Positions 2,098 to 50,631 of a stretch of 64,000 nt of DNA are shown piece after piece. A program made the translations under genes and the position numbers. Location: assembly GCF_014696715.1 (NCBI RefSeq), contig NZ_JACJQO010000019.1, positions 248,001 through 312,000 on the forward strand. The letters are read 5' to 3'. Source of the stretch: Pseudanabaena sp. FACHB-2040 (GTDB lineage: Bacteria > Cyanobacteriota > Cyanobacteriia > Phormidesmidales > Phormidesmidaceae). Every line of letters begins with the position of its first letter. Positions within the stretch are counted from its first letter, which is position 1. The notes below the pieces were generated by a model. That model was given only the letters and a program-made list of their open reading frames with translations. It ran no database searches and was not told the origin of the DNA.

Positions 2098-2141
2098 AGA
2101 AGACAGAAGCGATTAGTTTGAGATAATCGCTTCTGTCTTCT
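2098..2141 (-). terminator. Strong hairpin at the amine oxidase stop codon
   Basis: An 18-bp perfect stem (AGAAGACAGAAGCGATTA and its complement) with an 8-nt loop begins at the last base of the amine oxidase stop codon. On the minus strand it is followed by C and a run of A, not U; the eight-base T run lies on the plus strand before the stem. It may therefore act as a 3' stabiliser or processing site rather than a textbook intrinsic terminator, or it may stop transcription by stem strength alone. Confidence 0.5.
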
Positions 2142-4072
2142 TAACTGTGGCAATGCCCCTGCTTAGGCGGCGATGGCGGCACGTCTAGGGCAGGGTTGCG
2201 GTCAAAGAACCCAACGGGTTTGAGGGTAAAGCCGCTGTAGGCAACTGGCATAACTGGCCAATCTTCAGGGCGGGGAATATGGTGGTGACCGAAGGTGTAC
2301 CAGACGACGACATCAGTGTTTTCGAGGGGTCGGTCTGCCTGGGTCCACTTGGGCAACCCTTCGCCACCTGCGTGCTGGTTGGGATACGCCCCGGCTGAGA
2401 ACTTCTCATCGGCCTGGTAGGGGGTGACCCACAGGTGCTTAGTGAGGAAGCCAGCTCGCTTGAGAATGGGCGCGTCGGGGTGGGCAAAGGGCAGTATGTT
2501 TTCACCGGGAATGAGCTTGAAGGCGACGGGCTTGTCTAGACGGTTGGTAACGTTGGGGTTTACCACTTTCCAGTAGCGGCCTACCAGCGGATCGATGATG
2601 CGCTGCGCTGCTTGCTCTGTGCCAAGCAGCGTTTCGACAGCGTAGCAGGCGTTGCCGTAGGGGTTGTCTGGCCCCATGGGCTCAGAGGCTGTGTTGACCT
2701 CGTACACCGAGTTCTCCCCGCCATCAATGTCGAAGTCTAGCCGCATGCCAAAAAAGTGCTGATGAATAATGGCATTGAGGTCAGGAGCGACTAGAGTGCC
2801 GTACTTGGGCTGATCAGCTAAGGCCCCACACAGCAAAATGCCTGTCAGCTTGATTTCGTATTGGATGGTGCCGTCTTGGTAGAAGTACCAGTAGAAACCG
2901 TATTCGTAGTTATCGACGGTGGCGATGAAGGAGAGAACAAGCCGCCGTGATCGCCGCACATCTGTGTGCTCACGCCGCCAGTCGTAGTGCTTCCAGAGAA
3001 TGCCGAAGTCTTCTTCGTGCAGGCATACGGCATTTTCAGTAATAGCTACATTGCCCCGGCTGTCGGTCAGCACCGCATCAAAGTAGCGAATCTCGCCCAG
3101 GCAGTCGCAGCCGTTGGTGAGGGAATTGGCGAGCATACCGACGCCATGTTCGCCCAGATCAAAGGCATTTTTTCGGAAGTGCTGAGGCCGGGGATCGTTG
3201 TAGGGCACGACCATCTCGGCCATGGAAGCTCGGTAGAGAATGGGCCGTAGCCGTCCTTCATCTTCATATCCCACCTGGTGCAGCACCAGCCCCTCGCGGG
3301 GAGTGAAGCCGATGCGGATATGCCATTTCTGCCACTTGATCAGGTGCCCCTCAATGGTGAAGCTGGGGCCTTCGGGCTGGCTGATGTGAAGCGGCTTGAG
3401 GTCTTGGCGGAATTTGTCTTGATAAAATTCTCGGGCATATTCGCCGGGGTCGGGGGGTACGGGGACGGCTCCCACGTCCTCAATGCGAACGAGCTCCATC
3501 GTATTGAGATCGACGACGGGCACTAGTCCATCGATGGGGCGCGAGTAGAAGTTGCTCTCGGGGGTGTTGCGGACGTAGCAGAGGCAGCGGGAGAGCCGCA
3601 GGCCAACCTCATTTTCAAAGCCAAAGTTGCCGATGGCCCAGGGATCGACCACGACTGTCTCAAGATCCAGTCCTCGCTTCTCGACGGCTGCTTTAAAGGC
3701 TGGGTGAGCTTTAACAGCAGCTTCACATTCAGCCAGTTCGTCGGCCATGATGTTGGGCTGCACGTCGGGGATGTGCTGCCAGGACGTAACGGTATTTTGA
3801 TCGAGGGAGACAATTGCCTCGTAAACTTTGCCGGTGACGTTGTCGAGCAGGATGAAAAAGGCTTCCCGCGCTAGCGCCTCGCCGGGTTTATAGTTCAGAA
3901 CGGCTGTCTTAGGCGGTTCGTGGAGCGTGACGACCGGAAACCGAAAGGTATCACCAGCTGCTTTTTCTTGGCGAACGATTGCAACAGCGCGCTGGATCTC
4001 CTCAGCAGTGAGCGGCTCTAGTGGATGCAGGTGTGGGGTTGAAGCCACGGGGGGTATTGAAGTGAGTGTCAT
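2141..4072 (-). CDS. Copper-containing primary-amine oxidase
   Basis: A 643-residue copper amine oxidase, which oxidises primary amines to aldehydes with release of ammonia and hydrogen peroxide. The TPQ cofactor precursor is Tyr389 in the motif TVDNYEYG. The catalytic base is Asp305 in NAFDLGEHGVG. Copper ligands are His437 and His439 in IIHQHFFG, with the third in the C-terminal FGHHHIPRPEDWP block. Length matches the bacterial family. There is no signal peptide or lipobox, so a cytosolic enzyme is expected, unlike the periplasmic E. coli enzyme. The gene is divergent from a PotD-like binding protein, sharing a 159-bp intergenic region, which suggests a role in using imported amines or polyamines. 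Exact substrate is not readable. Confidence 0.94.
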   Translation of the reverse strand: MTLTSIPPVASTPHLHPLEPLTAEEIQRAVAIVRQEKAAGDTFRFPVVTLHEPPKTAVLNYKPGEALAREAFFILLDNVTGKVYEAIVSLDQNTVTSWQHIPDVQPNIMADELAECEAAVKAHPAFKAAVEKRGLDLETVVVDPWAIGNFGFENEVGLRLSRCLCYVRNTPESNFYSRPIDGLVPVVDLNTMELVRIEDVGAVPVPPDPGEYAREFYQDKFRQDLKPLHISQPEGPSFTIEGHLIKWQKWHIRIGFTPREGLVLHQVGYEDEGRLRPILYRASMAEMVVPYNDPRPQHFRKNAFDLGEHGVGMLANSLTNGCDCLGEIRYFDAVLTDSRGNVAITENAVCLHEEDFGILWKHYDWRREHTDVRRSRRLVLSFIATVDNYEYGFYWYFYQDGTIQYEIKLTGILLCGALADQPKYGTLVAPDLNAIIHQHFFGMRLDFDIDGGENSVYEVNTASEPMGPDNPYGNACYAVETLLGTEQAAQRIIDPLVGRYWKVVNPNVTNRLDKPVAFKLIPGENILPFAHPDAPILKRAGFLTKHLWVTPYQADEKFSAGAYPNQHAGGEGLPKWTQADRPLENTDVVVWYTFGHHHIPRPEDWPVMPVAYSGFTLKPVGFFDRNPALDVPPSPPKQGHCHS

Positions 4073-4231
4073 GCAAAATGCCTACGTTTCGTAACAAGTG
4101 CAGTAGTGCACCAAAAACATTGGGGGTATCGTAATGCAATCCCTGGGTGGCTGGCTGTTTCGCCTCGACACATTTCCGGGAAAAGCCGCGCCCGCTTCCT
4201 CTTTATCCCTGGAGACAGGACTGTTGACTGT
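4073..4231. promoter_or_regulatory. Shared divergent promoter region, amine oxidase / PotD-like
   Basis: This 159-bp gap must hold the promoters of both the amine oxidase and the divergent potD-like gene. I see no clear paired -35/-10 box and no NtcA-type GTA-N8-TAC palindrome. The call rests on gene arrangement only. Confidence 0.35.
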
Positions 4232-5308
4232 ATGAAATTGAAACTGGATGCGATCGCACTTAGCCTCCTCTGGATTTGCCTTACCCTCAGCCTTAGCCTG
4301 ATCAGCTTTACTGCCCCAGCCCAGGCAGCCAGTTGCACCCTTCGCATTATCGGATGGGAGGGCTACATGGATGAGTCTTTTAGCAAACCCTTTGAGGAAG
4401 AGTACGGCTGCAGGGTGGTGCCAACCTATGCCGGGTCCTCCGATGAGATGTATGCCAAAATTCGCGCTAGCAAAGGCAAGAACTACGACTTGGTGACAGC
4501 CTCCGGCGATTTAACCAAGCGCCTATACGATTCTGGCCTGGTAGCGCCTCTGGATCTGGAGCAGGTGCCTAACTACGGCGATCTCTTCCCCATTTTTAAG
4601 CAGCCAGAGTACAACACCTTTGACGGCACCCCCTATGGCGTATCAATCGGTTGGGGGCCGGACTTTCTGATCTACGACACCTCGGTGGTCAAGCAGGAAC
4701 CCCAGTCCTGGGCAGTGCTGTATGAAGAGAAATACAAGGGCAAGATCTCGCTGCCGGACTACCCCATCTTCTCTGCCGATGTGGCCTTGTGGGGTGGCAA
4801 GCCCGACATCTACGACCTGGACAAAAGCACTCTAGACAACGACATCAAGCCCAAGCTGTTTGACCTGCGACCCCAAGTGCGTAAGTTCTGGAGCAGCCAG
4901 GGCGAACTCTCCCAGCTATTCCTAAACAAAGAAGTCACAATGGCCTGGGCCTGGCCGGTCACGATTGAGGAACTAAAGCGGGCCGACTTTCCGATAGGAG
5001 CCACCATTCCCCAAGAAGGGGCGACGGGCTGGAGCGATTCTTGGATGCTGATGAAGGGATCTAAAAACGCTGACATTGCCCATGCCTGGATGAATTACAT
5101 GCTCACTGGGCCCGCTCAAAAGGCGATGTCTGATGTGACTGGCTACTGGCCTGTATCTAGCCAGGTGCTGCCGCTCCTGAGTGAGGAGAAGATTGCTGAC
5201 TGGCACCTAGATGATTTAGAGAACTACTACAGCAATATCTACTTCTGGGAAACAGTGCCCAACTATGATGAATGGGTCGCCCTCTGGAATGAGTTCCGAG
5301 GACAGTAG
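4232..5308 (+). CDS. PotD-like spermidine/putrescine-binding protein (first copy)
   Basis: A 358-residue periplasmic polyamine-type binding protein. I chose the ATG at 4232 because a normal signal peptide starts there: MKLKLDAIALS, a hydrophobic core, then TAPAQAAS with an A-x-A cleavage site. A longer frame upstream adds residues with no export character. The mature part begins with the PotD/PotF pattern LRIIGWEGYMDESFSKPFEE and carries DLVTASGDL, PYGVSIGWGPDFLIYD and the C-terminal WMNYMLTGPAQKAMSD block. It should deliver polyamines or a related cation to an ABC permease. A PotB-like permease lies 1.4 kb downstream, but no PotA or PotC is nearby. The complete pot operon at 49.8-54.1 kb carries a different PotD, so this is a diverged second copy. 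Confidence 0.85.
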   Translation: MKLKLDAIALSLLWICLTLSLSLISFTAPAQAASCTLRIIGWEGYMDESFSKPFEEEYGCRVVPTYAGSSDEMYAKIRASKGKNYDLVTASGDLTKRLYDSGLVAPLDLEQVPNYGDLFPIFKQPEYNTFDGTPYGVSIGWGPDFLIYDTSVVKQEPQSWAVLYEEKYKGKISLPDYPIFSADVALWGGKPDIYDLDKSTLDNDIKPKLFDLRPQVRKFWSSQGELSQLFLNKEVTMAWAWPVTIEELKRADFPIGATIPQEGATGWSDSWMLMKGSKNADIAHAWMNYMLTGPAQKAMSDVTGYWPVSSQVLPLLSEEKIADWHLDDLENYYSNIYFWETVPNYDEWVALWNEFRGQ

Positions 5309-5402
5309 ATGGGGTTTGAATCATAATTGATGCAGTGTTCTATTGCTTAGTTTGGGTTCTAACCAGGCATGACTCAACTGGGCAATCCTTGAGTTAGAAG
5401 CA

Positions 5403-5990
5403 ATGACGGTAGCTACTAATCGTTTCACGTTTGACGAGTATCTGCACTACGAAGATGGCGCAGATACTCGCTATGAGTTAGTTAATGGTGAACTGGTACC
5501 CATGAGTTTGGGCAGTGGGCTACATGGCGAAATCATGCATTTCCTTGAGCGTAGCTTTGAGCAAACTATTCAACAGCAGGCACTACCTTGGGTCGCTCGA
5601 AAAGGCGTTATTGGCGTGCGATCGCCTCAGCGGGGCCGCTGGGATACCTCTCGGATTCCAGACGTCACTGTACTGCCGCTTGAACAATGGAGGCTGCTCC
5701 GCAATCGAGAATCTGTTATTGAGTTGACAGATCCTCCGCCGCTTCTAGTCGTTGAAGTAGTAAGTGAATCTACAAAAAGTGTTGATTACCGTGCTAAGCG
5801 CTCTGAATATGGAGTATTAGGCATTCCTGAATACTGGATTGTGGACCCCTTGGAACAAAAAATTACGCTCTGCGTATTGATTGAAGGTTTCTACGATGCT
5901 TTAACAGTTTCAGGAGCACAGACGATGGCATCAACAACTTTCCCAACGTTAGATTTAACTGCTGAGAAAATTCTCAACCCAGACACCTAA
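5403..5990 (+). CDS. Uma2-family (DUF820) putative endonuclease
   Basis: A 195-residue member of the Uma2/DUF820 family, very numerous in cyanobacteria and predicted to have a PD-(D/E)XK nuclease fold. Visible marks are TFDEYLHYEDGADTRYELVNGE at the N-terminus, SRIPDVTVLP in the middle, and LLVVEVVSESTKSVDYRAKR followed by YGVLGIPEYWIVDP. The D, E and K of the nuclease core are present. Biological role is unknown; these genes multiply and move within cyanobacterial genomes. It is inserted between the potD-like gene and the coq4-like gene and probably has nothing to do with amine uptake. Confidence 0.85.
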   Translation: MTVATNRFTFDEYLHYEDGADTRYELVNGELVPMSLGSGLHGEIMHFLERSFEQTIQQQALPWVARKGVIGVRSPQRGRWDTSRIPDVTVLPLEQWRLLRNRESVIELTDPPPLLVVEVVSESTKSVDYRAKRSEYGVLGIPEYWIVDPLEQKITLCVLIEGFYDALTVSGAQTMASTTFPTLDLTAEKILNPDT

Positions 5991-6076
5991 ATCCACCCTT
6001 TCGGGTGACCTTCCAACCTCAGATTACTCAACATCTTCTCAATTGGCTTTTACCCTGAGAGTAGATGCGTTAATTT

Positions 6077-6700
6077 GTGCCTATGTTAAACGCTCTTAAC
6101 AAAGTGAGTCAACTGCTAGAGGCCAAACAGGAAAACCGTTTGGGAGACTTTGCCATTCTCAAGTCAGACCTTTTTGGAGCAAAGGTAAACCCAAAAGTTG
6201 CCTCTCTTTTGGAGCCAGTTATTGGCTATTACCCCCCTATCGATCTAGACAACTTAATGCAGTATCCGGCAGGCACCTTTGGCTATGAGTACGCCCATCA
6301 TATGAAGGAGAATGGCCTCACGCCTCTTAACGTTAGCCCTGAGTTGGGCGAGGTTGCACGCCGGAATGTATTTGCCCTGCGCTATGCCGTAACCCATGAC
6401 ATTATTCATGTGCTGCTGGGGTTTGACACGAGCTATGCGGGCGAGATTGGGGTGCTGGCTTTTGCAGCGGAGCAGGGTTATAGTCCTTCTCTACGATTTA
6501 GCTTGCAGCTAGCGCGGTGGCTTTACCCGCTGATTGCGCCAGGGCAGAAAGCTGCGATCGCAACCAACACCCGCAAAGGCCGCAACCTGGCTCAACAGGC
6601 CAAATTTCTCCTAGGCTATCGCTTTGAGGAGCACTGGCAGGAAGCTATTGGAGAGGTGCGATCGCAATTAGGCCTGCCGCCTCACCCCGAAGCCCTCTAA
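6077..6700 (+). CDS. Coq4-family protein
   Basis: A 207-residue protein of the Coq4 family. Coq4 organises ubiquinone synthesis in mitochondria; the cyanobacterial homologues have no established function, and cyanobacteria make plastoquinone rather than ubiquinone. The Coq4 zinc-type motif is visible: YAVTHDIIHVLLGFD followed by AGEIGVLAFAAEQ (H-D-x-x-H plus a downstream Glu). The N-terminus (ILKSDLFGAKVNPKVAS) and the YPAGTFGYEYAHHM segment also fit. The start may be GTG at 6077 or ATG at 6083; the choice changes two residues. The next gene, a PotB-like permease, begins 11 nt after the stop, so the two are likely co-transcribed. Confidence 0.8.
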   Translation: MPMLNALNKVSQLLEAKQENRLGDFAILKSDLFGAKVNPKVASLLEPVIGYYPPIDLDNLMQYPAGTFGYEYAHHMKENGLTPLNVSPELGEVARRNVFALRYAVTHDIIHVLLGFDTSYAGEIGVLAFAAEQGYSPSLRFSLQLARWLYPLIAPGQKAAIATNTRKGRNLAQQAKFLLGYRFEEHWQEAIGEVRSQLGLPPHPEAL

Positions 6701-6710
6701 CCCGTTAAGT

Positions 6711-7586
6711 ATGACTGCTATTTTTCCATTTTTGCCTGCCGCAAAGAAACCTGCTTCGACATTTTGGGCAACTTTCCTGCCGCCCTTTGTGTGGATGGCA
6801 GGGTTCTACTTTTTGCCGCTAACGATCTTACTGAGCTACGCCTTCTTTCGGCACGAATATGTCGATATCATTCCTGAGTTTACCTGGGAGAACTTTGGGC
6901 AAATTCTCAGCAATATTGGCTATCGAAATACGCTGGGAAGAACCCTAAGCATTGCCGCCTTGGTGACTGGAATTGATCTAATGTTGGCCTTTCCGGTAGC
7001 GGCGTATCTGGTATTTTATGCAGGCAAATTCAAGCAAACCCTGACGCTCTTGATTTTGCTGCCGCTGTGGTCCAGCTATTTGGTGCGGGTCTTTGCGTGG
7101 CGCATCATTCTCGGCTACAACGGGGTGCTCAATAGCCTGTTGGTGTGGCTGGGGGTCTTGAACGAACCCTCGGCACTGTTTCTCTACAACAAGTTTTCGA
7201 TGGTGATCACGCTCTGCTACGTGTGGCTGCCGTTTATGATTTTGCCTCTAATAACTGCCTTTGAAAGGCTGCCCAAAAATCTGCTGGAAGCCTCTTCCGA
7301 CCTAGGTGCACCGCCGACCTACACCTTTAGGCGGGTAATGTTGCCGCTGGTGCTGCCAGGAATGTTGGCGGGGGGGCTATCAGTGTTCAGCCTGACAATG
7401 GGCGACTACATCACAGCGTCGCTGGTGGGTGGGGCAGGGGATATTCTAGTGGGCAACATTGTGGCTAGCCAGTTTGGCGTAGCGGCCAACTGGCCTCTGG
7501 GATCTGCCTTTGCCGTGGTGGTGCTGCTGGTGTTGTTTGGACTGATTGCCGTGATGGCCAAACGCGGGGTTTTAGAAAACCTGTAG
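6711..7586 (+). CDS. PotB-like ABC permease (first copy)
   Basis: A 291-residue inner-membrane permease of the spermidine/putrescine type with about six membrane helices. The EAA loop that docks the ATPase is present as EASSDLGAPPTYTFRRVMLP, followed by LVLPGMLAGG. The first helix FLPPFVWMAGFYFLPL is typical of PotB. The start ATG lies 10 bases after the coq4-like stop. It probably pairs with the PotD-like protein at 4.2-5.3 kb. No PotC or PotA lies in this cluster: the next gene runs the other way. It must borrow partners from the complete pot operon 43 kb away or from elsewhere, or form a homodimer. Confidence 0.85.
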   Translation: MTAIFPFLPAAKKPASTFWATFLPPFVWMAGFYFLPLTILLSYAFFRHEYVDIIPEFTWENFGQILSNIGYRNTLGRTLSIAALVTGIDLMLAFPVAAYLVFYAGKFKQTLTLLILLPLWSSYLVRVFAWRIILGYNGVLNSLLVWLGVLNEPSALFLYNKFSMVITLCYVWLPFMILPLITAFERLPKNLLEASSDLGAPPTYTFRRVMLPLVLPGMLAGGLSVFSLTMGDYITASLVGGAGDILVGNIVASQFGVAANWPLGSAFAVVVLLVLFGLIAVMAKRGVLENL

Positions 7587-7597: not shown

Positions 7598-10500
7598 TCA
7601 CAATGCCGGTTGCCCTAGCTGCACGAACAGCGGCTCCTCCAGCTGCTGATATTTTCCGGCCAGCACAGCAGCTAGATAGGCCAGCAATTGCTGACACTGA
7701 TCGGTGTTGGGCACATAAATTTGGCCATTTTGGCGAGTGAAGAGGGGGGCCTGGTTGAGCGATCGCACCGTCTCCTCCTCAAGTGAGCTTGCGCTTAGGG
7801 GCGGCACATCATTGACACTAGGCACCAGCCCAGGGGGCAGGCGGCCCTCTAGCAGGGCGATCAGATGCAGCTCACAAGCCTGGGTGTTGACGCCTCGCTG
7901 CTCTAACAGGTGCAAGATGCCGGTTAGCGGCAGGGGCTGATCGGGGAAAGTCCGCACCAGCTCCATCAGCAAAAAGTTGTCGCTGTACTGATGGCGGATC
8001 AGGTCCAGCACCTGAGGATAGCGCACCAAGTTGACCAACCCATAGGCCACCCGGCTACAGCTTGGGGGGCGGTTATTTGGATAGGTGTCTTGAATGATGG
8101 TGGCATTCGGGAACTTCTGTCGCAGCCAACGAGTAATCGAGGGCAGCGAAGCCGTACCCCCTGTACAGATCACCTGGTTAACGCTCTGGGCCGACTGTCC
8201 GCTCTGGCTCATCAGTCGGTTCAAGTGACCATTGATGCGCTGAATATAGGGCAGCACAATGCGATTTTCTAAGTCTTTACGGCGAACCATCCACCGCTGA
8301 TCGGCCAGCTTCAGCTCAAACTGGTTTTGGTGCTGCAGAATGAGTTTTAGATGGCGGGCCGCCTCTAGCACGCTCTGGCCCAGCAGAGAGCTTTCCAGCC
8401 GCTGCTGCAGCCGGTAGCGCAGAGCTGGATCTGGCTCAGCAATGCGGGGCATCTCCAGCTCATCTAGATTTAGAGCCGCCCAGTTGGCCTGGCCCAGGTC
8501 AGGAGACGCCTGCCAGCCCCAGCCTGTCTCGGTAGAAGCCGCTTCTCCGTTCCCTTGCCCTGCTTGAGACTGCCGTCGATCAGCAGGGTGCAGCAGGTAG
8601 GCAATGATGTCTAGGTCAATGCCATCGCCAGCGTAGGCCAGAGAGTGCAGGCCAAAGTCCTGGTAGGCCAAACGACTCAGCGGGCGAGGCAAATTGACCA
8701 CACCCAGTTCGGTGAGGGTAGCCCCAGCGCTGATGACAACTGTTCCGCCCGACCAGTTGCAGGCATAGAGGGTCTGCTGTCGCAGCGGCTGGGTGCTGGC
8801 TGTTTGTACAGGGGTGGCGGGGTTAGGTAGGCCGGAGAGGACAGCTGCGATCGCATCTTCAATGAAGTAAATCTGATCTGCAGATTGAGCCAGCCCAGCG
8901 GCCAGAATCGCCTCGCGCAAGTTAAAGCTGTAGGTATCGGGCCAGTTGGCAGGATAGCTCGCAATCACCCCCTGCAAGTGGCCCAAAGCATGGGTAATGG
9001 CAGCCTCTTCTAACCCCACAGCCCCAACACTCAGCGAGTTCTGGTCGCCTGAGCACAGCGTTGCCAGCAGCGCCTGTAGGCTAGCCTGCACAGACTGCAG
9101 CGGCACCTGCACCGTTTCAGACCACTGCACCTGGGGAGCTTCCTGCCCCGTGTCCCCCTCTCGATAGGAAATACCCAGTTTGAGCAGGGGCTTGAGGTTT
9201 TTGAGCAGCAGGGAGACGCTGTCATTTTCGCCGTCGTCAAAGCGATCCTCGTCGTCCCAAGTCACGGTCAAGGCTGAAGAACCCACTGACTGCAAGCGCC
9301 AGGAATCTTGCCCTGTACGTGCAACGGCTAGAGACGCAATCGTTGGCAGCCGGAAAAACTTGTCAGCAGTTACACCGGAAACCGTATTGTCTACCCAGTA
9401 CAGGGGATATACCTGCCCAGCAATTTGGTTTAGCAGCACCGCCGAGAGACCGGTTGTGCCAATATCTAGGCCCAAGAACCAGGCTTCCCGAACCCCACCT
9501 AAATCGCTCCCCGATTCGGGCACCAAAGCCGCAGTCCCTGAATCTACCGGGGCTGCGACTTCCCCAGCAGTCTCGGGCACGACAGCTCCAGCCTCAGTAA
9601 TTTCCAAAGCAACATCGGGCAGAGGTATTTCCCGACTGATCAAATCTGCCTCTGTCGGCGCAGTCAGCCGATCTGCTGGAGCCTCAATCTCTGTTGGCGA
9701 CGGCCCAGTGAGCAGACCTTCGGTTGGGCTGTCAGCTTCAGGGAGAAAGGGAGGCTCCACCGTTGCAGGTGAAGTCAGCTCGGCTAGCAGTTCCTCGTCA
9801 CTGTCGAGCAAGCCCAACAATTCTAGAGAGAGATCGGGGGTAGTGAGGACACTCAGAGACTGGATCTCGGCTGCACTGGCCTCTATAGGCAAATCCTCCT
9901 GATCAGCCATCATCCGCTGCTGCGAGCTGACTTCCATCGTCTCTGCAGCTTCATCTGCCTCTAGGTCGAGCGGCAGTTGCTCCTGGTCAGGAGCCACTAA
10001 GCGCAGCAAATCAGCCAGCGACAATGCTTCTCCCGAGGGTTCCGGCGCGACGAACGCCTCTGCAGGAGGCGCTTCAGCTAACCAGTCATCCACTGAAGCC
10101 GTCTCAGTCACCGGTAAGCTCAGCTCATCGTCATCAAACAAAGCCAGATTGTCAGCAGCCGTTTCTGGAGGCGCAAGCAAGTCTCCAAATAACCCCTGAT
10201 CGGCCTCGTCCTGGGGAAAAGGAGTTGTCAGGGCCTGGTCTAGAGCAGCATTTAGATCTCCTAGATCTCCTAGCAGCGTTGCATCTTCTAGAAAGGAGGC
10301 TGACTCTTCCAGCACAGGCTCCCCTTCTAGGCCAGCCGCTGCCGACTCCGATTCCAGCAAAGTGGCTAAATCATCCCAGTCAATTACCTCGGAGGGTGCC
10401 GCAGCCGCTGGCGCGTCGTCATTAGATTCCGCACGAGTCTCTAGGAAGGCCATAGGGTCATCCCCCCAGCCATCCTGGGGTGTACCCAGCTCGGCTGAAT

Positions 10501-13500
10501 CCAAAGCTGGCTCTCCGGCTGTCGGTTCGCCCTCATCAGCTGCAGAGGGTAGCATCGTTGGCTCATCGCCAAACAGGTCCAAATCCTCCAGGCTCACTGC
10601 AAACTCAGCTTCAGCCGGAGTCACCTCAGTTCCAGCAGGCTGCCAGTCGTCGGCAAGGCCTGCCAGCGTCTCTTCAGGCTGCTGTTCAGCGCTCTGCTCT
10701 ACCGGTTCTGGAGCAGTAGGGGCTGCAGGTTCTGGCGGCATCACTGGGTCAAGAGAGAGGGTTCCCCGCGCTTCTAGCAAGCTGGCTACATTGTCTAGCA
10801 GATCACTGAGGTCGTCATCGGAGCTAGGTGCAAGGGGCAAAGGCTGACCCTCTGGGGCTATCGCAGCCCCCTCCGGTTCCGGTTCCGGTTCCAGCACCGG
10901 GAAAGGTGAGGGTTCAACCGCAATATCCTCGCCTAAAGCGTCTAACGTGAAGTCTTCAGCGGGTTCACTTGCAGTCAGATCAAAAGTTGAAGCATCTGTT
11001 GCAGAGCCTAAGCTCAGATCCAGGCTCTCCAGCAGATCTAGAGAAAGATCGTCATCGTCAACCGTAGCAGCAGGTTCACGGAACTCGGCTGACGGCAGTT
11101 CAGCCACCTCTTCAAACAGGCTCTCTGCCGTCACAAGTTCCTGGGTTGGCGCTTCCTCCTGAATCGGCGCTTCCGGCTGAGGAGCATCCCCCAGGCTTAG
11201 GTCATCTATAAAATCTTCTAGATTAAGAGCCGCTTCAGTCTCTAAGCTTTCTGCTGAGGGGGATGGGAGGGTTTCAGCAGGCAAATCCGAAAAGAGATCA
11301 GCGCTCAGCGGCTCTGGGGTCGGCTCGTCTAGGACTAGAGGAAGCACTTCGGCAGTTGAGGGCTCCTCCAGTTCAGTAGCCTCTGGCTCAGAAGCCTCCA
11401 GTTCAGTAGCCTCTAGTTCAGTAGCCTCCAGCAAATCTTCTAGGGTCAGGCCCGACTCGCCCACAGCAGAAGGATCTGCCGCTGATGCCAAGCCAAGCTC
11501 CTGAACAATAGACTGTAAATCGTCAGCAGGATCGGGTTCCTCCGCCACTGTCGGAGCATAGGGCTGGTCTGCTGCTACAGATGCTGTGCCCTCCTGGTCA
11601 AAGAGAGACTGCAAATCGTTTACTGGGACAACTTCTGCCGACGGAACGTTGGATTGAACGTCTGCCACAGGTGCCCCCTCTTGATCAGAGAGAGTCTGCC
11701 AATCAAAAGCGGGGTCAGCTTCCTCCTCTGCTGCTGGAACACTGGGCTGAACGTCTACTGCAGGCTCTACTGCCCCCTCTTGATCAGGGATAGCAAAGAG
11801 CTGATCGAGTAAGAAAGTCGCATCTTCTTCGGGGGAAGGCACCTCAGAATCTGAGGTAAAGCCATCATCAACAGTTTGCGCAGAGTCTTCTAAGCTAGCC
11901 GTTGGGTTTGTCTCAAGCTCAGGTGACGCTGGTGCCGTCAACCAAAACTCTTGGGGCAGCACGTTTTGAGGTTCTACAGAAGAACTCTCAGGGCTGGCTT
12001 CAGGAAACAGCTCAAGGTCCGCTGGCTCTGGTGACGGTTCTGACCAATCCTGGGTAGCTGGAGCTAGGTCTTCCTGTAATTCCAGCTGGGACAAATCGGC
12101 ATTGAGCTGTTCAAGGGTGGTTTCACCAAATTCCAGGCCGAAGCCTGAAGCGACTTCTAGGTCATCCGTTGCCAGCAGATCCTCATCCGCCGCTGCTGGG
12201 ATAAAAGTATCTTCTGCTGCACCATATTCCTCCCGACCAAAACCGGTCTCATCGAGAGAATCAGGGGAGCGCGGCTGGAAGGTACCGGGTTCATCGGGCA
12301 GCAGCTGGGCTAGAGAGCTGATAGTCTCAGCGACAATAGTCTCTTCCTCTACCTCTGCCATTAGGGATTGAGAAAAGTCTGCGCCAAAAACCTCATCTAG
12401 GGTTGCAGCCGATTCACCGCTGATAGCAGGCACATCTGGTTCAGTCGGATCAGCCAGGTCAAACGTCTCCGCCGCAGAAGGCTCAGGCACCTGATCCACG
12501 GCTTCATCGAAGAGCAGCGTGTCGAGAGTGGGTTCGTCTTCAAAGGAGCTGCTACTGCTGATATCGAATTGCTGTCCAACAGGTTCACCTACAGTGAGGT
12601 CATCCGCAGAAGATTCACCCACAGCAAATTCATTCACAAAGGGTTCGCCCACAGTGAAGTCGTCTGCCAAGGATTCATTGATAGGTGATTCGCCGTCAGT
12701 CAGGCCTTCTAAAGCGAACTCGTCTGCGGAAGGTTCACTCACAGCAAACTCATCTACCGTGAACCCCTCGACCAGGGGCTGGTCCTCAACCGGATCATCT
12801 CCAGTAAGGTCATTTGCTGTAAGGTCATCTCTAGGAGAGCCGCTGCCCATCAAGTCAGGGAAAGACTCTGCATATGCATCCGTCTCTGTGCCTTCAGGCT
12901 CCCAAGACATCAGATTGAGGTCTGCATCAGTCCTCGGCTCTGTGCCCGGAGAAGCCTCAGCCGGAGCTGCAAGGGAGATGCTGTCTTCACCAAACAGCGT
13001 TTCGTACAGCTCGTCTAGTTCTTGATAGGGGTCTTCTGCCCCGCTGATAGGCTTAACCGAGGCGGCTGGTAGGGTCTCACCCGGCGGGACTTCTACCCGC
13101 GCTTCTGGATCGGGGGCAGCCTCATCTAGCTGATCGAGCAGCCGCAGCGGATCGGTTAAATCTTCGTTCTTGGATTCTTCAACATTGGGGCCTGTTTGAA
13201 TTACAGTCACGTCTTCTGGATCAGCCCCAATCGCAAACGGTGACTCCTCCGGTTCGTCTAGCTGAAGCTGGGTTAGCTCTTCATCCAGCTGAAAGAGTGT
13301 GACTTCCTCGTCTTCCTCAAAGTCTAAATCTAGGTTAAGCGCTTCTAGGGCATCCCAATCTTCATCAACCGATGGGGTTTCCCCTGCTGCTGGGGGTGTC
13401 GCGGCTGTCTGACGAGCCACCGGCAGCTGGGCTGGTTGATCCCCGCGGTCTCTGGCTGCCTCCAGATATGCCGGTCCATCCTGGCTCATCTGCTGAGCTA

Positions 13501-14305
13501 GATGGGCGATCATCGCATTGAACATCATCTCGCCCTGCTGCCCCAGCGTGTGCATCTTGTCGAGGCCCTGGGAGAGCGAATCTTGATAGCTGTAGACGCT
13601 CTGCTGCAGGGCTTCAAACACAGCCCGCAGGGTTTTATCGAGGTTTAGCACCAGCTCATCTGACTGGCGCTGCAGCTGTTTCATTTGCTCTAGTCGCTGA
13701 GCCGGAGACAGCTGGGGCAGCTGTTCGCCCAGATCTGGCGCTGGCTGTGCGGCTTCTGATAGTAGCTGGGTGTTGGTGACTTCAGCATCGAGCCGCTGCA
13801 CGCTCTGCTCAATCTGATACCGCATTTGGCCTTCTAGCCGCTCTGCTAGAGCCTGAAACAGCTGGTCCAGGTTGGCCTGGTCAAGGGCAGGGGCGGGCAG
13901 CTGCATTTGCTGCCGGGTCAGCTCGATCTGCCGAACTTCCTCTAGGAGGGCCTGTCGCTCCTGCTGTAGGTCGCTGATTTCTGAGCGTAGGGGCTGCACC
14001 ATTTGCGATCGCAAATACTGCATCTCCTGCAGCAGGGCCTGCAAAACAGTTCCGGCCGAAGCTTCTAAAGACTCAGAGCCCTCCGCCACCTCACCCACCC
14101 TGAGCTCGCCATCGGCAGTGAGTTCCCCTGTCGTTAAGCCGCTAGAGTGTTCCAGAGTTTGGAGGTATTCATAGACCTTCTCCAGGACTCTACGCTGTTG
14201 AGCTGTTTCGTTAGAAACGACCCAAGGCAGCTTAGGCGATGCTTTGCCCAACATCACCTCTATTTCAGCAATCAGCCCCTGCAGTTGTTCCCTCTGAGAA
14301 GTCAC
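7598..14305 (-). CDS. Giant 2235-residue protein: coiled coil, acidic low-complexity middle, Hsp70/actin-fold ATPase
   Basis: A single frame of 6.7 kb. The GTG start at 14305 is supported by AGGGG seven bases upstream. Residues 1-60 look globular. Residues about 80-275 are Gln/Leu/Glu-rich coiled coil, for example LRSEISDLQQERQALLEEVR. Residues about 310-1600 are very acidic (Glu, Asp, Ala, Ser, Pro, Thr) with degenerate repeats and probably disordered. From about residue 1605 an Hsp70/actin-fold domain begins: phosphate-1 motif FLGLDIGTTGLSAVLL, a connect-like FIEDAIAAVLSGL, and the adenosine motif ICTGGTASLPSITRWL. After it about 110 residues remain with no peptide-binding domain of DnaK type. 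It stands alone, convergent with the PotB-like gene. Function is unknown; a scaffold or cytoskeletal organiser controlled by ATP is one inference. I know of no characterised protein with this layout. Confidence 0.88.
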   Translation of the reverse strand: MTSQREQLQGLIAEIEVMLGKASPKLPWVVSNETAQQRRVLEKVYEYLQTLEHSSGLTTGELTADGELRVGEVAEGSESLEASAGTVLQALLQEMQYLRSQMVQPLRSEISDLQQERQALLEEVRQIELTRQQMQLPAPALDQANLDQLFQALAERLEGQMRYQIEQSVQRLDAEVTNTQLLSEAAQPAPDLGEQLPQLSPAQRLEQMKQLQRQSDELVLNLDKTLRAVFEALQQSVYSYQDSLSQGLDKMHTLGQQGEMMFNAMIAHLAQQMSQDGPAYLEAARDRGDQPAQLPVARQTAATPPAAGETPSVDEDWDALEALNLDLDFEEDEEVTLFQLDEELTQLQLDEPEESPFAIGADPEDVTVIQTGPNVEESKNEDLTDPLRLLDQLDEAAPDPEARVEVPPGETLPAASVKPISGAEDPYQELDELYETLFGEDSISLAAPAEASPGTEPRTDADLNLMSWEPEGTETDAYAESFPDLMGSGSPRDDLTANDLTGDDPVEDQPLVEGFTVDEFAVSEPSADEFALEGLTDGESPINESLADDFTVGEPFVNEFAVGESSADDLTVGEPVGQQFDISSSSSFEDEPTLDTLLFDEAVDQVPEPSAAETFDLADPTEPDVPAISGESAATLDEVFGADFSQSLMAEVEEETIVAETISSLAQLLPDEPGTFQPRSPDSLDETGFGREEYGAAEDTFIPAAADEDLLATDDLEVASGFGLEFGETTLEQLNADLSQLELQEDLAPATQDWSEPSPEPADLELFPEASPESSSVEPQNVLPQEFWLTAPASPELETNPTASLEDSAQTVDDGFTSDSEVPSPEEDATFLLDQLFAIPDQEGAVEPAVDVQPSVPAAEEEADPAFDWQTLSDQEGAPVADVQSNVPSAEVVPVNDLQSLFDQEGTASVAADQPYAPTVAEEPDPADDLQSIVQELGLASAADPSAVGESGLTLEDLLEATELEATELEASEPEATELEEPSTAEVLPLVLDEPTPEPLSADLFSDLPAETLPSPSAESLETEAALNLEDFIDDLSLGDAPQPEAPIQEEAPTQELVTAESLFEEVAELPSAEFREPAATVDDDDLSLDLLESLDLSLGSATDASTFDLTASEPAEDFTLDALGEDIAVEPSPFPVLEPEPEPEGAAIAPEGQPLPLAPSSDDDLSDLLDNVASLLEARGTLSLDPVMPPEPAAPTAPEPVEQSAEQQPEETLAGLADDWQPAGTEVTPAEAEFAVSLEDLDLFGDEPTMLPSAADEGEPTAGEPALDSAELGTPQDGWGDDPMAFLETRAESNDDAPAAAAPSEVIDWDDLATLLESESAAAGLEGEPVLEESASFLEDATLLGDLGDLNAALDQALTTPFPQDEADQGLFGDLLAPPETAADNLALFDDDELSLPVTETASVDDWLAEAPPAEAFVAPEPSGEALSLADLLRLVAPDQEQLPLDLEADEAAETMEVSSQQRMMADQEDLPIEASAAEIQSLSVLTTPDLSLELLGLLDSDEELLAELTSPATVEPPFLPEADSPTEGLLTGPSPTEIEAPADRLTAPTEADLISREIPLPDVALEITEAGAVVPETAGEVAAPVDSGTAALVPESGSDLGGVREAWFLGLDIGTTGLSAVLLNQIAGQVYPLYWVDNTVSGVTADKFFRLPTIASLAVARTGQDSWRLQSVGSSALTVTWDDEDRFDDGENDSVSLLLKNLKPLLKLGISYREGDTGQEAPQVQWSETVQVPLQSVQASLQALLATLCSGDQNSLSVGAVGLEEAAITHALGHLQGVIASYPANWPDTYSFNLREAILAAGLAQSADQIYFIEDAIAAVLSGLPNPATPVQTASTQPLRQQTLYACNWSGGTVVISAGATLTELGVVNLPRPLSRLAYQDFGLHSLAYAGDGIDLDIIAYLLHPADRRQSQAGQGNGEAASTETGWGWQASPDLGQANWAALNLDELEMPRIAEPDPALRYRLQQRLESSLLGQSVLEAARHLKLILQHQNQFELKLADQRWMVRRKDLENRIVLPYIQRINGHLNRLMSQSGQSAQSVNQVICTGGTASLPSITRWLRQKFPNATIIQDTYPNNRPPSCSRVAYGLVNLVRYPQVLDLIRHQYSDNFLLMELVRTFPDQPLPLTGILHLLEQRGVNTQACELHLIALLEGRLPPGLVPSVNDVPPLSASSLEEETVRSLNQAPLFTRQNGQIYVPNTDQCQQLLAYLAAVLAGKYQQLEEPLFVQLGQPAL
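11369..11428 (-). repeat. 15-bp tandem repeat inside the giant gene
   Basis: Four 15-bp units based on CAGTTCAGTAGCCTC, two identical and two with one to four changes. On the coding strand they encode EATEL-type pentapeptides. The unit length keeps the frame, so copy number can change without breaking the protein. Confidence 0.85.
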
Positions 14306-14970
14306 GTTCAGCCCCTTGAATGCACAAGTTCGTCGATTGTAGTCGCTGTAAAGGTGCGAAGATATTAGGCTTGCTCAACTCTAGGTTTGGCCTTCTAGCA
14401 GACAGCGAACAAGCTTTTAGAAGCGCCCCGCTCGGCCAGCGATGAAGAGACCCTAGAGAACCGAGAAGTGGCTTAACAAACGGTTAATGGTACCGCCAGA
14501 TCGCTCACGTAAGCCGTCCAAGTTTCGCTCCCTCTGGACTTTTGCCCAAAGTGTATGCCAGACAGCGGTAAAAGTCACAGTCTAAAGGGAAAATGCGGCG
14601 CAGGTTCAAACTTCTTGATACTCAGTCTCATCTAATTTACCCTCTACCAACGCTGTCCGATGAGGCAGTTTGCCTAGGTGCGATCGCTCATCAACCAGTT
14701 GATCCAGATCCAGCCCAGAAGTCGCTGCTATCTCAAAGAGCCTCCTCTATATAGAAGCGGCCTCTTTTAAGAACTGGTGATATATTGGGTCTGCTAAGGT
14801 ATCGCCCTGAGCCGTACCGGATTACTGTATTAACAGCAGCTTTGGGCTGAGCTTCCTAAACTCGGGCAGCGGCTGAGCCGTTTGGCCACTGTTTTTGAGG
14901 CTATCTCCTGGAATAAAGTCTATAAGCCCTCTGTTGTTCATCATAGTTCCTGCCCCTCTCAAACAGCGCC
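14306..14970. other. Divergent intergenic region between the giant gene and the Crp-family gene
   Basis: About 665 bases between two divergent genes, so it should hold both promoters. It contains one HIP1 site near 14,690 and no open frame with family support. I see no clear promoter pair, riboswitch or RNA gene. Confidence 0.5.
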
Positions 14971-15675
14971 ATGGAAGCTCGCTACGGCATTCGAGACCCC
15001 CAAGCTGATGTCGAACTAATCCGGTCTACTCCTTTTTTTAAAGGGCTACCCGAAGACGCTGTTAAAAACGCCACCAAACAGGTGGTCACCCGCACTCATC
15101 CCGCAAATCAGGTGATTTTGCTAGAGAATGACTGGGGCAGCTCAGTCTATTTCATTTTGGAAGGCTGGGTAAAGATCCGCACCTACAATTTGGATGGCAA
15201 AGAGGTCACACTTAATATCTTAGGGAAGGGTGAATTGTTTGGCGAAATGGCCCCTCTAGATGAAGTACCTCGCTCTACCGACGTACTAACGCTGGTGCCT
15301 ACCGTAATTGGCAGTATGCCCGCTCACGACTTTGTTAACCTGATCCAGACCGAACCCCTAGCCGGTATTCGTCTGGCCCAGCTGATGGCCCGACGCCTGC
15401 GGCAGGTCAACCGGAGGCTGAGACTGAGAGAGTCTGACAGTATGTCTCGCGTAGCCGATATCATTTTGTTTTTAGCTGACGGTCAGGGCCATATGGGCCA
15501 GCAGGGCTACGAAATCCCCAACTTGCCCCACCGGGAACTGAGCAGCCTGAGTGGCCTGGCCCGTGAGACGGTCACCCGCGTACTCAGTAAACTGGAGAAG
15601 AAGGGGTTGATTGCTCGCGATCGCGACATTATGCGTATCCCCGATATCGATGCTCTGGAGCGCCTGTTAGTTTAG
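14971..15675 (+). CDS. Crp/Fnr-family transcription regulator, SYCRP1-like
   Basis: A 234-residue regulator with an N-terminal cyclic-nucleotide-binding barrel (about residues 17-140) and a C-terminal winged helix-turn-helix. The phosphate-binding cassette reads GEMAPLDEVPRSTDV, keeping the G-E and R-S pair that hold cAMP in Crp-type proteins; NtcA lacks this form. The dimer helix (LARLMARRLRQVNRRLRL type) is followed by PHRELSSLSGLARETVTRVL, the recognition-helix region. These features fit the cyanobacterial cAMP-receptor class, but whether it binds cAMP is inferred. It is first in a tight operon: the next start lies 4 bases after its stop, followed by a cobalamin-type gene. Confidence 0.85.
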   Translation: MEARYGIRDPQADVELIRSTPFFKGLPEDAVKNATKQVVTRTHPANQVILLENDWGSSVYFILEGWVKIRTYNLDGKEVTLNILGKGELFGEMAPLDEVPRSTDVLTLVPTVIGSMPAHDFVNLIQTEPLAGIRLAQLMARRLRQVNRRLRLRESDSMSRVADIILFLADGQGHMGQQGYEIPNLPHRELSSLSGLARETVTRVLSKLEKKGLIARDRDIMRIPDIDALERLLV

Positions 15676-15679
15676 GGAC

Positions 15680-16498
15680 ATGAGCCATTCTCCAACCAAT
15701 GCACCGGAGCCAGGCGCACCGGACCAAAACCCTGGTGCCGCTACGCCTGCCGATTCTGGATCAGTCTCGACAGATTCTCAAGCCTTTGACGAGCTAGAAA
15801 CCTATCTGGACTATCAGCCTGCCGCCCCCACCGCGACGCTAAATTCGCTGCATCAGGCCAAGGTAGGGCCGCTGGTTATGGTTGAGACCGCCTTTTTGGC
15901 CAGTACCGCCTGCTTAATATGGCTGGTCAACACCTACTTTCCACCCGGACCCATTCTCAGGATCCTATTTCCGCTGCCAATGGCCTTGGTTTATCTGCGC
16001 TGGGGCGGGCGAGCAGCTTGGATGTCGGCACTGGTGTCTGGGCTGCTGCTAGCGGTGCTGATGGGGCCGCCCCGCAGCCTCTTATTTTTGATGCCTTATG
16101 CTGTTATGGGCGTGCAGCTTGGCTTTCTTTGGTCACGGCGGGCCAACTGGTACGTGGCTATTGGGCTGGGCACCATCATCGGCACCCTTGGCTTCTTCTT
16201 TCGGGTTTGGCTAACGTCGATCTTGCTGGGAGAAGACCTGTGGGTTTACCTCACTAGCCAGGTCACTCAGTTGCTTAGCTGGATTTTGGATCGCCTGATT
16301 GACCTGGGTCTGTTGGGGCTGGGGGTAGTGGGCGAACCTAACCTTGCTGCTGTTCAAGCTCTGGCAGTGGTAATGGTGGTCTTGAGCAACATCGTCTATC
16401 TCTTTACGGTTCACCTAGCGGGCTGGCTGCTGCTGGAGCGCTTGGGTGCCGCTATGCCCGCACCGCCGGAGTGGGTACAGACCCTGCTGGAGGAGTAA
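15680..16498 (+). CDS. DUF2232 membrane protein
   Basis: A 272-residue integral membrane protein of the cyanobacterial DUF2232 type. The first 60 residues are a Pro/Ala/Asp-rich cytoplasmic tail; about six to seven membrane helices follow, including LRILFPLPMALVYLRWGGRA and the WLTSILLGEDLWVYLTSQ region. Related DUF2232 proteins elsewhere resemble small-molecule (S-component-like) carriers, so transport is possible but unproven. It lies between a Crp-family regulator and a CobT-like gene with gaps of 4 and 10 bases, so the three are almost surely one transcript. Confidence 0.75.
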   Translation: MSHSPTNAPEPGAPDQNPGAATPADSGSVSTDSQAFDELETYLDYQPAAPTATLNSLHQAKVGPLVMVETAFLASTACLIWLVNTYFPPGPILRILFPLPMALVYLRWGGRAAWMSALVSGLLLAVLMGPPRSLLFLMPYAVMGVQLGFLWSRRANWYVAIGLGTIIGTLGFFFRVWLTSILLGEDLWVYLTSQVTQLLSWILDRLIDLGLLGLGVVGEPNLAAVQALAVVMVVLSNIVYLFTVHLAGWLLLERLGAAMPAPPEWVQTLLEE

Positions 16499-16508
16499 GA
16501 CCTCCTGT

Positions 16509-17633
16509 ATGACAGCCTTTATTCGCAGGTATACTCAGCCGGAGCGAGCCGCTGCCTGGCTAGATCAATTTACAGGAAAAAAGCCACTGCTGGCTCTGGT
16601 GCTAGGCTTTACCGAAACGGGTCTGATTCCTGGTATCTCTGCTGCCGGAGCCACCCCAGCCGATCGTCGCTACACGGCCCTAGCTGATGCTGAATTTTTG
16701 CTGCGAGGGCCGCAGCCCGCTCCTCGCTTTTCCCTACCGCCGCTACCGGCCGGGGCTTCTCCGACGTTTATTTCACGGGCTATAGTCGCTGATCTGGACC
16801 TACCCGTCACCCTCTTTAATGCAGGATTGCCGCAAGCCCCCTCAGTTCCCTATATCGATCTGGAGGGACTGCCGGCCCAATGTCTAAGCAGCGGTAGAGC
16901 CCTGCCGTTGGCTACGGTTGAGCACCTCTGGCAACTGGGTCTAGTATGGGGCGAAAAGCTAGCTGCTGCCACAGAGGGCTACCTCATGCTCGGGGAATGT
17001 GTGGTGGGGGGCACAACGACGGCTCTCGCAGTTTTACTGGGGCTAGGCATTGCCGCCGAGGGCCGGGTTAACAGTAGCCATCCTACCTGTAACCACGCCC
17101 AGAAGCGATTGCTCGTACAAGCGGGACTGGCCCAGGCAGAGTTAGCAGCAGCAAGCGAGCGGGCTAATCCGTTGTTCTGGGTGGCTGCGGTGGGTGACCC
17201 AATGCAGCCTGTTGTAGCCGGTATGGCACTGGCTGCCAGCCGAACGACTGGCGTGCTGCTGGCGGGTGGCACCCAAATGTTGGCAGTCTATGCACTGATT
17301 AAAGCTCTGGCTGACTACTACCAGCTAGACTGGAACCCGCAGCAGGTGGTGGTGGGAACAACTTGTTGGGTGGCTGAAGATGCAACGGGCGATACCGTGG
17401 GGCTAGCGCAGGCGACAGCCGCCTGTCTATTGGCAGCTCAGCTTAACTTTTCTGGCTCTCAATTTCCCCAGCTCCAGGTGTATGAGCAGGGGTTTGTGAA
17501 AGAGGGTGTGGGGGCCGGAGGCTGTGCGATCGCAGCTCACCTCTACGACGGCTGGGCTCAGGAACAGCTGCTCCAATCAATCGAGGCTCTCCTGGCAGTC
17601 CAGATGCGGCTGGAGCAGAAGAGCCTACTGTAA
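16509..17633 (+). CDS. TIGR00303/CobT-like nicotinate-nucleotide phosphoribosyltransferase
   Basis: A 374-residue protein of the TIGR00303 branch of CobT proteins, which activate the lower-ligand base of cobalamin by moving the ribose phosphate of nicotinate mononucleotide onto it. The start ATG at 16509 follows a GGAGGAG run overlapping the previous stop. Family marks are FTETGLIPGISAAGATPADRR near the N-terminus, EGYLMLGECVVGGTTTALAVL in the middle, and LLAGGTQMLAVYAL near residue 250. The glycine-rich C-terminus GVGAGGCAIA also fits. Cyanobacteria make pseudocobalamin with adenine, so the base used here is uncertain. It is the third gene of the Crp-DUF2232-CobT operon. Confidence 0.83.
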   Translation: MTAFIRRYTQPERAAAWLDQFTGKKPLLALVLGFTETGLIPGISAAGATPADRRYTALADAEFLLRGPQPAPRFSLPPLPAGASPTFISRAIVADLDLPVTLFNAGLPQAPSVPYIDLEGLPAQCLSSGRALPLATVEHLWQLGLVWGEKLAAATEGYLMLGECVVGGTTTALAVLLGLGIAAEGRVNSSHPTCNHAQKRLLVQAGLAQAELAAASERANPLFWVAAVGDPMQPVVAGMALAASRTTGVLLAGGTQMLAVYALIKALADYYQLDWNPQQVVVGTTCWVAEDATGDTVGLAQATAACLLAAQLNFSGSQFPQLQVYEQGFVKEGVGAGGCAIAAHLYDGWAQEQLLQSIEALLAVQMRLEQKSLL

Positions 17634-36184: not shown

Positions 36185-37099
36185 CTATTTTCCTTGGGGA
36201 TCCAAAATGTCTCGCAAGGCATCCCCCACTGTATTAATACTCAGCACCGTCAAAAAAATCGCCAACCCCGGAAAAATTACCACATGAGGAGCCCCCTCAA
36301 TATAATTCTGGGCATCAAACAGCATTCGCCCCCAGGTCGGTACATCGGGCGAAAAGCCCAACCCTAGAAAGCTCAGAGTCGATTCGGCTAAAATCGCATT
36401 GCCCACGGCTAGCGTAGCCGCAACCGTCACCGGCCCCACCACGTTTGGCAGCAGATGGTCTCGCACCAGCTGCCAAGGATTGGCCCCCAACGCCACTGCC
36501 GCCTGCACAAAATTGCGGTACTTCAGGCTCAAGAACCCTGCCCGCACCAGACGCGCTACCGACATCCAGTTCAGCCCGCCAATCACGCTGACAATCAACA
36601 CAAATACCCCTTGCTCCGGCCCCAGCACCTGCCGCACCAGCTCTCCAAACAGGTAAATTACCAGCAGCACCAGCGGTAGCTGCGGCAGCGACAAAAACAG
36701 ATCTGTCAGCCGCATCAGCCCGCCATCAATCCAACCGCCATAAAAGCCTGCCAGCGAACCTACGAACAGACCCAGCGTGATTGCGATCGCCATTGCCATC
36801 ACCCCCACTGCCAAAGAGATTCGTCCCCCGGACAAAATTCGGGCTAGCTGATCTTGCCCTAGATCATTGGTGCCGAAGGGATAAGCGCTGCTGGGCGGTA
36901 GCAAAGCCCGATCAAAGCTAATCTCACTGGGCGAAGCTGGGTAAAGCCAAGGCCCGACCCAAACTGCTAGAACGATAGCGATAAGGACAATTAAAGCTGC
37001 CGCCCCTATGCGATCGCACCACAGCCGCTGCAGCAGTGCCGGAGACGATCCGGTTGGAACCAGCCCAACAGCAGCGTTCAGAGGGGCAGATTCGGTCAT
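36185..37099 (-). CDS. DppC/OppC-type ABC permease
   Basis: A 304-residue permease for peptides, nickel or similar solutes. It has the OppC N-terminal helix (RIGAAALIVLIAIVLAVWV), the PFGTNDLGQDQLARILSGGR segment and the EAA-like loop AAVALGANPWQLVRDHLLPN. About six membrane helices. The ATG at 37099 is chosen over a TTG two codons earlier. It lies 48 bases after the DppB-type permease on the same strand and is the distal gene of the group. No binding protein or ATPase is adjacent, so partners are elsewhere. Confidence 0.87.
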   Translation of the reverse strand: MTESAPLNAAVGLVPTGSSPALLQRLWCDRIGAAALIVLIAIVLAVWVGPWLYPASPSEISFDRALLPPSSAYPFGTNDLGQDQLARILSGGRISLAVGVMAMAIAITLGLFVGSLAGFYGGWIDGGLMRLTDLFLSLPQLPLVLLVIYLFGELVRQVLGPEQGVFVLIVSVIGGLNWMSVARLVRAGFLSLKYRNFVQAAVALGANPWQLVRDHLLPNVVGPVTVAATLAVGNAILAESTLSFLGLGFSPDVPTWGRMLFDAQNYIEGAPHVVIFPGLAIFLTVLSINTVGDALRDILDPQGK

Positions 37100-37147
37100 G
37101 GCCAAAATCCAAATATTTCAGCCATCCTACCAGGCACAACACCCAAA

Positions 37148-50604: not shown

Positions 50605-50631
50605 TTGCTCAAAGAAATCATTCAAGACCGG

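Follow-up and report, generated by a model that had tools for sequence, protein, structure and literature searches.

The giant gene described here encodes a protein that probably organizes other proteins in the cell. It combines a conserved helical head, a very long acidic arm and an Hsp70/actin-fold domain with its own C-terminal extension, and the conservation of this layout across many genera is beyond chance. A nucleotide-gated scaffold, as proposed in an earlier note on this DNA, is still the best reading and is favored over the alternatives weighed below. In its specific form, a two-module cyanobacterial scaffold in which the actin-fold subunit would dock on the acidic arm and switch it with nucleotide, we place this reading somewhat short of an even chance. 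The system is widespread in cyanobacteria and joins acidic scaffolds and actin-fold switches, two ideas that are usually kept apart. Its fused, split and ATPase-less versions provide natural controls, and both the putative docking peptide and the altered active site lend themselves to direct and cheap tests.

The giant gene, its neighbor and its relatives

The whole gene occupies 7598..14305 on the minus strand of the window (the entire 64,000-nucleotide stretch of DNA that was analyzed), on contig 19 of a 6.28 Mb host genome. It is a single open frame of 2235 codons, running from a GTG start at 14305 down to the stop codon at 7598-7600, and thus exactly the uninterrupted frame of 2235 aa given by the earlier note, which had left the strand unstated; read on the plus strand, the same interval contains many stops. 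The GTG start is supported by alignment A2, where all 16 rows have Met at this position, and the frames of some relatives reach further upstream than it. The protein, which holds 437 Asp and Glu residues in total, reached no Pfam or NCBIfam cut-off, matching Hsp70, HscA and PilM models only below them, and a single-sequence phmmer search of the PDB gave no match. We place it in the Hsp70/actin superfamily as a variant whose architecture we did not find described. No paper on the protein was found in the open-licence literature, an absence that is no proof, since subscription papers mostly lie outside that literature and the locus tags used were partly guessed.

Upstream, an intergenic region (14306..14970) separates the giant gene from a divergent gene for a Crp-family regulator (14971..15675, plus strand). 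Of 75 testable loci, many of them close relatives, 66 have such a gene in divergent orientation no more than 3 kb away; 97 loci were examined, 18 of which had no head start and 4 too little upstream sequence. The regulator belongs to a conserved row (14971-17633 in the window) with a DUF2232 membrane protein and a CobT-type phosphoribosyltransferase, resembling, by order only, the Synechocystis sll1371-sll1372-sll1373 unit in the available text of one study, which it may match (PMC2633013). Control of the giant gene by CRP via TGTGA-N6-TCACA was considered and is not supported, as 67 intergenic regions including that of the window showed no excess of sites (2 with one mismatch vs 1.3 expected; 14 with two mismatches vs 16.1 expected).

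Matches to the giant protein were found in 53 of 59 genomes at E ≤ 0.001 (own genome included), a number that includes matches to a head paralogue in an EamA transporter and probably also generic Hsp70 proteins. A profile of the C-terminal part matched 306 of 388 genomes of the class at E ≤ 0.001, the weak matches probably being ordinary Hsp70-family proteins, and 83 of 386 genomes from the phylum at E ≤ 1e-20, all labelled as the family or class of the window. A pattern search of named genomes returned 243 stretches, 224 of them encoding relatives, and the best 80, which were kept, carry cyanobacterial titles; among viral contigs, 63 pattern-matched stretches contained no relative of the giant. 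Loci L037-L054 and L057-L136 comprise 69 fused forms of 1187-2608 aa and 11 separate head genes with an arm. These 69 fused relatives at separate loci refute the idea, raised as a refuting case by the earlier note, that the frame is an assembly or annotation artefact joining two frames by chance, and leave that explanation a negligible probability. What speaks for it are two metagenome-assembled loci (L089 and L097), in which what looks like a frameshift interrupts the giant gene inside the arm, showing that this gene is not free of errors.

Head and ATPase are encoded as split pairs in at least 37 genomes from 10 families, on the same contig and strand and with the head gene before the ATPase gene. 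The ATPase frame starts no more than 67 residues from the domain in 20 of the 27 split rows with sequence, so that the arm belongs to the head gene; in the other seven (L037, L089, L097, L103, L104/L214, L210) the ATPase frame carries part of the arm or overlaps with the head frame, or the split may be a frameshift. With the first in-frame start codon taken as the start, the two frames of the 27 rows overlap by as many as 209 bases or lie up to 272 bases apart. A tree built by a quick method from 67 ATPase domains required at least nine changes between the fused and split states, six of them forced by strong branches, compared to 20.9 for shuffled labels. The two states are thus clustered by lineage and not of single origin. 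With four doubtful splits removed seven changes were left, and with long branches removed as well, five.

Sixteen genomes were chosen for having a head match and a weak or missing ATPase match. Twelve of these encode a short head gene only (245-460 aa), with a divergent crp gene visible beside it in 11 of the 12 short stretches fetched. One genome, G209, is 99% complete and encodes a long head gene with no strong ATPase match, while the assemblies of G331 and G306 are 82% and 68% complete. The three-part layout previously described is conserved across many genera, but its parts can come apart: many relatives encode head-arm and ATPase by two neighboring genes, and short heads also occur alone.

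The actin-fold domain and its extension

The Hsp70/actin-fold nucleotide-binding domain spans residues 1607-2097 (8015..9487, minus strand). An AlphaFold2 model of residues 1601-2235, built with 58 sequences, had a pLDDT of 88.5 and a pTM of 0.91, and the best PDB match of the C-terminal part in Foldseek was the nucleotide-binding domain of DnaK (E 8.7e-14). The best 50 rows from VIA-align, with Z of 21.9 to 19.7, were nearly all Hsp70/Hsp110, and MreB aligned with Z 20.1 and an rmsd of 3.2 over 303 residues. Profile alignment with hhalign to four Hsp70s of the same genome gave a probability of 98.1 (E 1.1e-13), the alignment to the full Hsp70s stopping at 490 of 635. The corresponding probabilities were 42.6 for the own-genome MreB and 0.4 for the own-genome PilM (in both cases a single sequence against the profile), a comparison that is uneven because four Hsp70 sequences were used and only one of each of the others. 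The actin-like fold that had been predicted for the C-terminal region is hereby confirmed by structure prediction, structure search and profile-profile alignment. The Pfam cut-offs were missed both for PF00012 (12.3 bits for the whole protein and 15.2 for the C-terminal part alone, vs 20.6) and for PF11104 (12.5 and 14.9 bits, respectively, vs 27), and the three weak families listed for the whole protein included neither an MreB family nor a J-domain. A separate 529-aa Hsp70-family protein (L056:3330-4916), with Pfam matches to HSP70 and MreB, is weakly similar to the C-terminal part of the giant.

The motifs listed in the earlier note all map to this domain: LGLDIGTTG, the phosphate-1 motif, corresponds to residues 1611-1619 (9449..9475, minus strand; Asp1614), the connect-1-like segment to residues 1810-1827, and CTGGTASLP to residues 2047-2055 within the adenosine motif at residues 2044-2070 (QVICTGGTASLPSITRWLRQKFPNATI; 8096..8176, minus strand). 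Conservation was assessed in an alignment of 102 rows (75 fused and 27 split, window included), with four rows lacking a visible head set aside and at least three genomes counted twice. The phosphate-1 Asp was found in 100 of 100 filled rows, Glu or Asp at the connect-1 position (1817) in 98 of the 102, Lys at Lys1987 in 97, and Gly2049 was invariant (102/102). In the phosphate-2 segment, residues 1856-1870 (8696..8740, minus strand), Ser1859 (codon 8729-8731) replaces the Asp of Hsp70 and MreB; this position, the assignment of which is backed by both Hsp70 and MreB alignments, is Asp in 4 of the 102 rows, Ser in 45 and Asn in 45. As the phosphate-2 Asp is substituted, the C-terminal module is likely, judging from its sequence, to bind nucleotide and to hydrolyse it slowly or not at all. 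Some relatives may still be hydrolytic, given the four rows with Asp and the headless locus L047 among those set aside, which also keeps it. The designation as an ATPase is therefore doubtful.

Compared to the nucleotide-binding domain of Hsp70/DnaK, the domain shares the fold, the phosphate-1 loop, the connect-1 acid and the adenosine motif, but it differs in having mostly Ser or Asn at the phosphate-2 position, inserts, a new C-terminal domain where the substrate-binding domain would be, and a head-arm protein to which it is fused or beside which it is encoded. The lack of the phosphate-2 Asp and of the substrate-binding domain places the giant outside the Hsp70 chaperone family. With MreB and other actin-like proteins it shares the superfamily fold and, as seen in the own-genome MreB, the TE ending of the phosphate-2 motif, despite the low profile probability. 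It also falls outside PilM, as the Pfam cut-off for PilM_2 was missed, and its profile did not match the PilM of the same genome.

The earlier note saw no substrate-binding domain after the ATPase. A beta-sandwich domain of this kind is indeed absent from the model, in which residue 2097 is followed by helices and a single short hairpin, but a conserved extension of about 140 residues (2093-2235; 7601..8029, minus strand) had been overlooked, with a mean column identity of 56% in 51 sequences. It is well modelled in context, and its isolated model has a pLDDT of 65.7. Weak structure matches give it a winged-helix-like appearance: Foldseek returned no match at E ≤ 0.001 (best 0.05), and the best Z from VIA was 8.0, where a Z of 8 or less may reflect a common arrangement only. 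Most of the names in its best 50 structure rows are what we take to be winged-helix proteins, with TubR and a centromere-binding protein of pNOB8 among them. Residues 2101-2235 carry a net charge of -7, which makes the extension slightly acidic, and going by these models it is perhaps a winged-helix domain.

The head, the acidic arm and the arm peptide

The head comprises residues 1-290 (13436..14305, minus strand), with conservation starting at residue 1 in A2. The N-terminal coiled coil reported earlier is in line with matches of the head profile to leucine zippers and ZapB, but heptad periodicity was mostly not significant, neither in the three stretches of the window head (p 0.23, 0.02 and 0.26; two of three not significant) nor in the head alignment (p 0.12, 0.12 and 0.91), and the power at a period of 3.6 residues exceeded that at 3.5. 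We still consider a coiled coil likely.

When the own genome was searched with the head at E ≤ 10, only the head itself, the N-terminus of an EamA transporter and a match with E 0.287 in an 88-aa frame were found; with the latter set aside, the transporter is the one credible relative. In the EamA transporter at L055:3587-5464 (minus strand), a long helical domain at the N-terminus is related to the head of the giant. This paralogue, of about 620 aa and present in many genomes, had been taken as a candidate for the type IV pilus protein HmpF, which was rejected since the sequence reads as an EamA transporter, and the own-genome search, with the head as query, revealed no HmpF-like relative of the head in the genome of the window. 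HmpF and other cyanobacterial coiled-coil-rich proteins appear in the available parts of two papers as coiled-coil-like proteins found in cyanobacteria (PMC12288463, PMC7002697). A second head match was present in 15 of 15 further genomes, with the EamA membrane part visible in 14 and the 15th cut at the end of the locus, and in none of the 12 genomes with a short head gene only. The EamA form is also present in G209, G306 and G331, all without a strong ATPase match, and in G166, from which the head gene is absent. On sequence grounds, the paralogue suggests a link between the head and the membrane.

The arm, residues 331-1600 (9506..13315, minus strand), is an acidic region rich in Pro, Ala and Leu. 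A very acidic middle is therefore correct, although the claim of about 1300 acidic residues is not, as the 1270-residue region contains 25.5% Asp and Glu (approximately 324 residues), and the acidic part sits mid-protein and does not form a tail. With 1.2% Lys and Arg, its net charge is -309, or -0.243 per residue, and its Pro content is 10.5%. On a charge-hydropathy plot, 54 of 59 dereplicated arms fell on the disordered side, that of the window included. Arm length ranges from 304 to 1715 residues among fused forms, and the arm of one split gene (L043) is not notably acidic (11.8% Asp and Glu). A 15-base in-frame tandem repeat of the ATELE type (11365..11431, minus strand) hints that arms may grow by repeat slippage.

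A first set of guessed arm motifs had given mixed results. An unbiased count of spaced triplets in the 59 dereplicated arms then led to a motif around D-x-(L/F)Y-x-S-L-F-G, represented in the window by residues 427-441 (YQELDELYETLFGED; 12983..13027, minus strand), which we propose as a docking site. The strict form LYxxLF was found in 39 of the 59 arms, following the head match by 70 to 305 residues, and the relaxed form in 47 of the 59 ATPase-linked arms vs 5.8 expected in shuffles, an enrichment counted on the discovery set of the motif and among arms that share ancestry. None of the 11 dereplicated short ATPase-less arms contained the relaxed motif, and neither did the G209 head gene, of whose 953-residue frame 911 residues were visible; the motif was present in G331, the 82% complete assembly with no strong ATPase match. 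The 12 arms without the motif include eight from the Leptolyngbya/Phormidesmis group, three from families f11, f22 and f23, and L104, which has a degraded relaxed form only. Other LF-acid motifs were enriched in both long arms (98 vs 24.2) and short arms (12 vs 0.5). Elsewhere in the genome the motif showed no excess, with 12 sites vs 14 for the reversed control.

Proposed mechanism and alternatives

In the favored scaffold, module 1 would consist of the helical, probably self-associating head and the long, disordered acidic arm with its short hydrophobic-acidic motifs, and module 2 of the nucleotide-binding domain with its own, perhaps winged-helix, C-terminal domain replacing the Hsp70 substrate-binding domain. 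Repeated fusion and the fixed gene order are the main reason to think that both modules act as one complex. The distribution of (L/F)YxSLFG suggests that it could dock either on module 2 itself or on some partner that is used only alongside module 2. The substituted active site would make module 2 a slow or non-hydrolysing nucleotide switch that opens and closes the scaffold, comparable in its working to FtsA or PilM; these adaptors have the actin fold, bind short partner peptides and show little hydrolysis. From its composition, the arm may act as a repulsive, multivalent spacer similar to the acidic linker of PopZ. This polar scaffold of Caulobacter likewise joins a helical self-associating part to an acidic, Pro-containing disordered linker, which the available text gives as 78 aa with a net charge of -0.28 per residue and 29% Pro (PMC9512792). 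For the giant the similarity is one of composition and charge-hydropathy, its linker being about 1270 aa with 10.5% Pro and -0.243 per residue, and would be a likeness in working and not in family membership. We know of no actin-fold partner of PopZ.

The fullest form of this reading, a cytoplasmic organizer in which an acidic multivalent scaffold is switched by its own Hsp70-fold pseudo-ATPase, either fused or operon-encoded, via LYxSLFG, and in which the same head recruits the EamA transporter, is rather unlikely when all of its elements are taken together. Other functions can be proposed for the same parts. The nearest solved folds and the profile matches are Hsp70 nucleotide-binding domains, and acidic disordered regions occur in chaperones, both of which fit a divergent Hsp70 chaperone machine whose arm shields or holds clients and whose new C-terminal domain replaces the substrate-binding domain. 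However, with no beta-sandwich substrate-binding domain in the model, no phosphate-2 Asp in 98 of 102 rows and no J-domain match of the whole protein in Pfam, we find such a machine unlikely. Because part of the head is common to the EamA transporter, a membrane-transport role could apply instead, with the giant acting together with the transporter, via the common helical head, as a membrane-linked regulator of transport or the envelope. The second head match in all 15 genomes, 14 with the membrane part visible, and the lack of the EamA form in the 12 short-head-only genomes agree with this, but G166 has the EamA form and no head gene, G209, G306 and G331, which carry it too, gave no strong ATPase match, and helical modules can be common to proteins without joint function; this role seems to us decidedly unlikely.

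An involvement in type IV pili or polarity, with a PilM-like adaptor and an HmpF-like coiled-coil partner under the neighboring cAMP-receptor gene, is quite improbable. It draws on PilM_2, to which 10 of 20 family members show a weak match (E up to 0.1), compared to 8 of 20 for HSP70, and on the divergent Crp-family neighbor in 66 of the 75 testable loci, SyCRP1 being tied to pili and motility in the available text on this regulator (PMC2633013). Against it count the hhalign probability of 0.4 with the single own-genome PilM, the EamA transporter as the only credible own-genome relative of the head, the lack of an intergenic excess of TGTGA-N6-TCACA, and the frequent neighbor clusters, none of which proved to be pil genes among those labelled or scanned. 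Still less probable, indeed very unlikely, is a DNA- or nucleoid-linked organizer in which the winged-helix-like extension binds DNA and is switched by the actin-fold domain: TubR and the pNOB8 protein do occur among the structure matches of the extension, yet the best Z of 8.0 lies where values of 8 and under may mean a common arrangement only, the best Foldseek E was 0.05 with none at E ≤ 0.001, confidence in the isolated model is low (65.7), and the extension is slightly acidic (net -7).

Proteins RntA and RntB of natural transformation were considered as a further lead and dropped, as the available portions of the papers describe them with pilin-like signal peptides or as putative pilins (PMC7690421, PMC12288463; also PMC7125226). 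On the other side of the giant gene, a cluster at 2141-7586 of the window ends 11 bases from its stop codon and contains, next to each other, genes for a copper amine oxidase (minus strand) and a PotD/YdcS-like solute-binding protein, followed by those for Uma2, Coq4 and a PotB-like permease; its sequence would be compatible with a possible polyamine uptake and oxidation cluster. Further away, the window encodes an ABC importer set at 51718-52914 and 49786-51558 and another at 36185-38110 (a solute-binding protein with two permeases, and two OppBC-like permeases, respectively).
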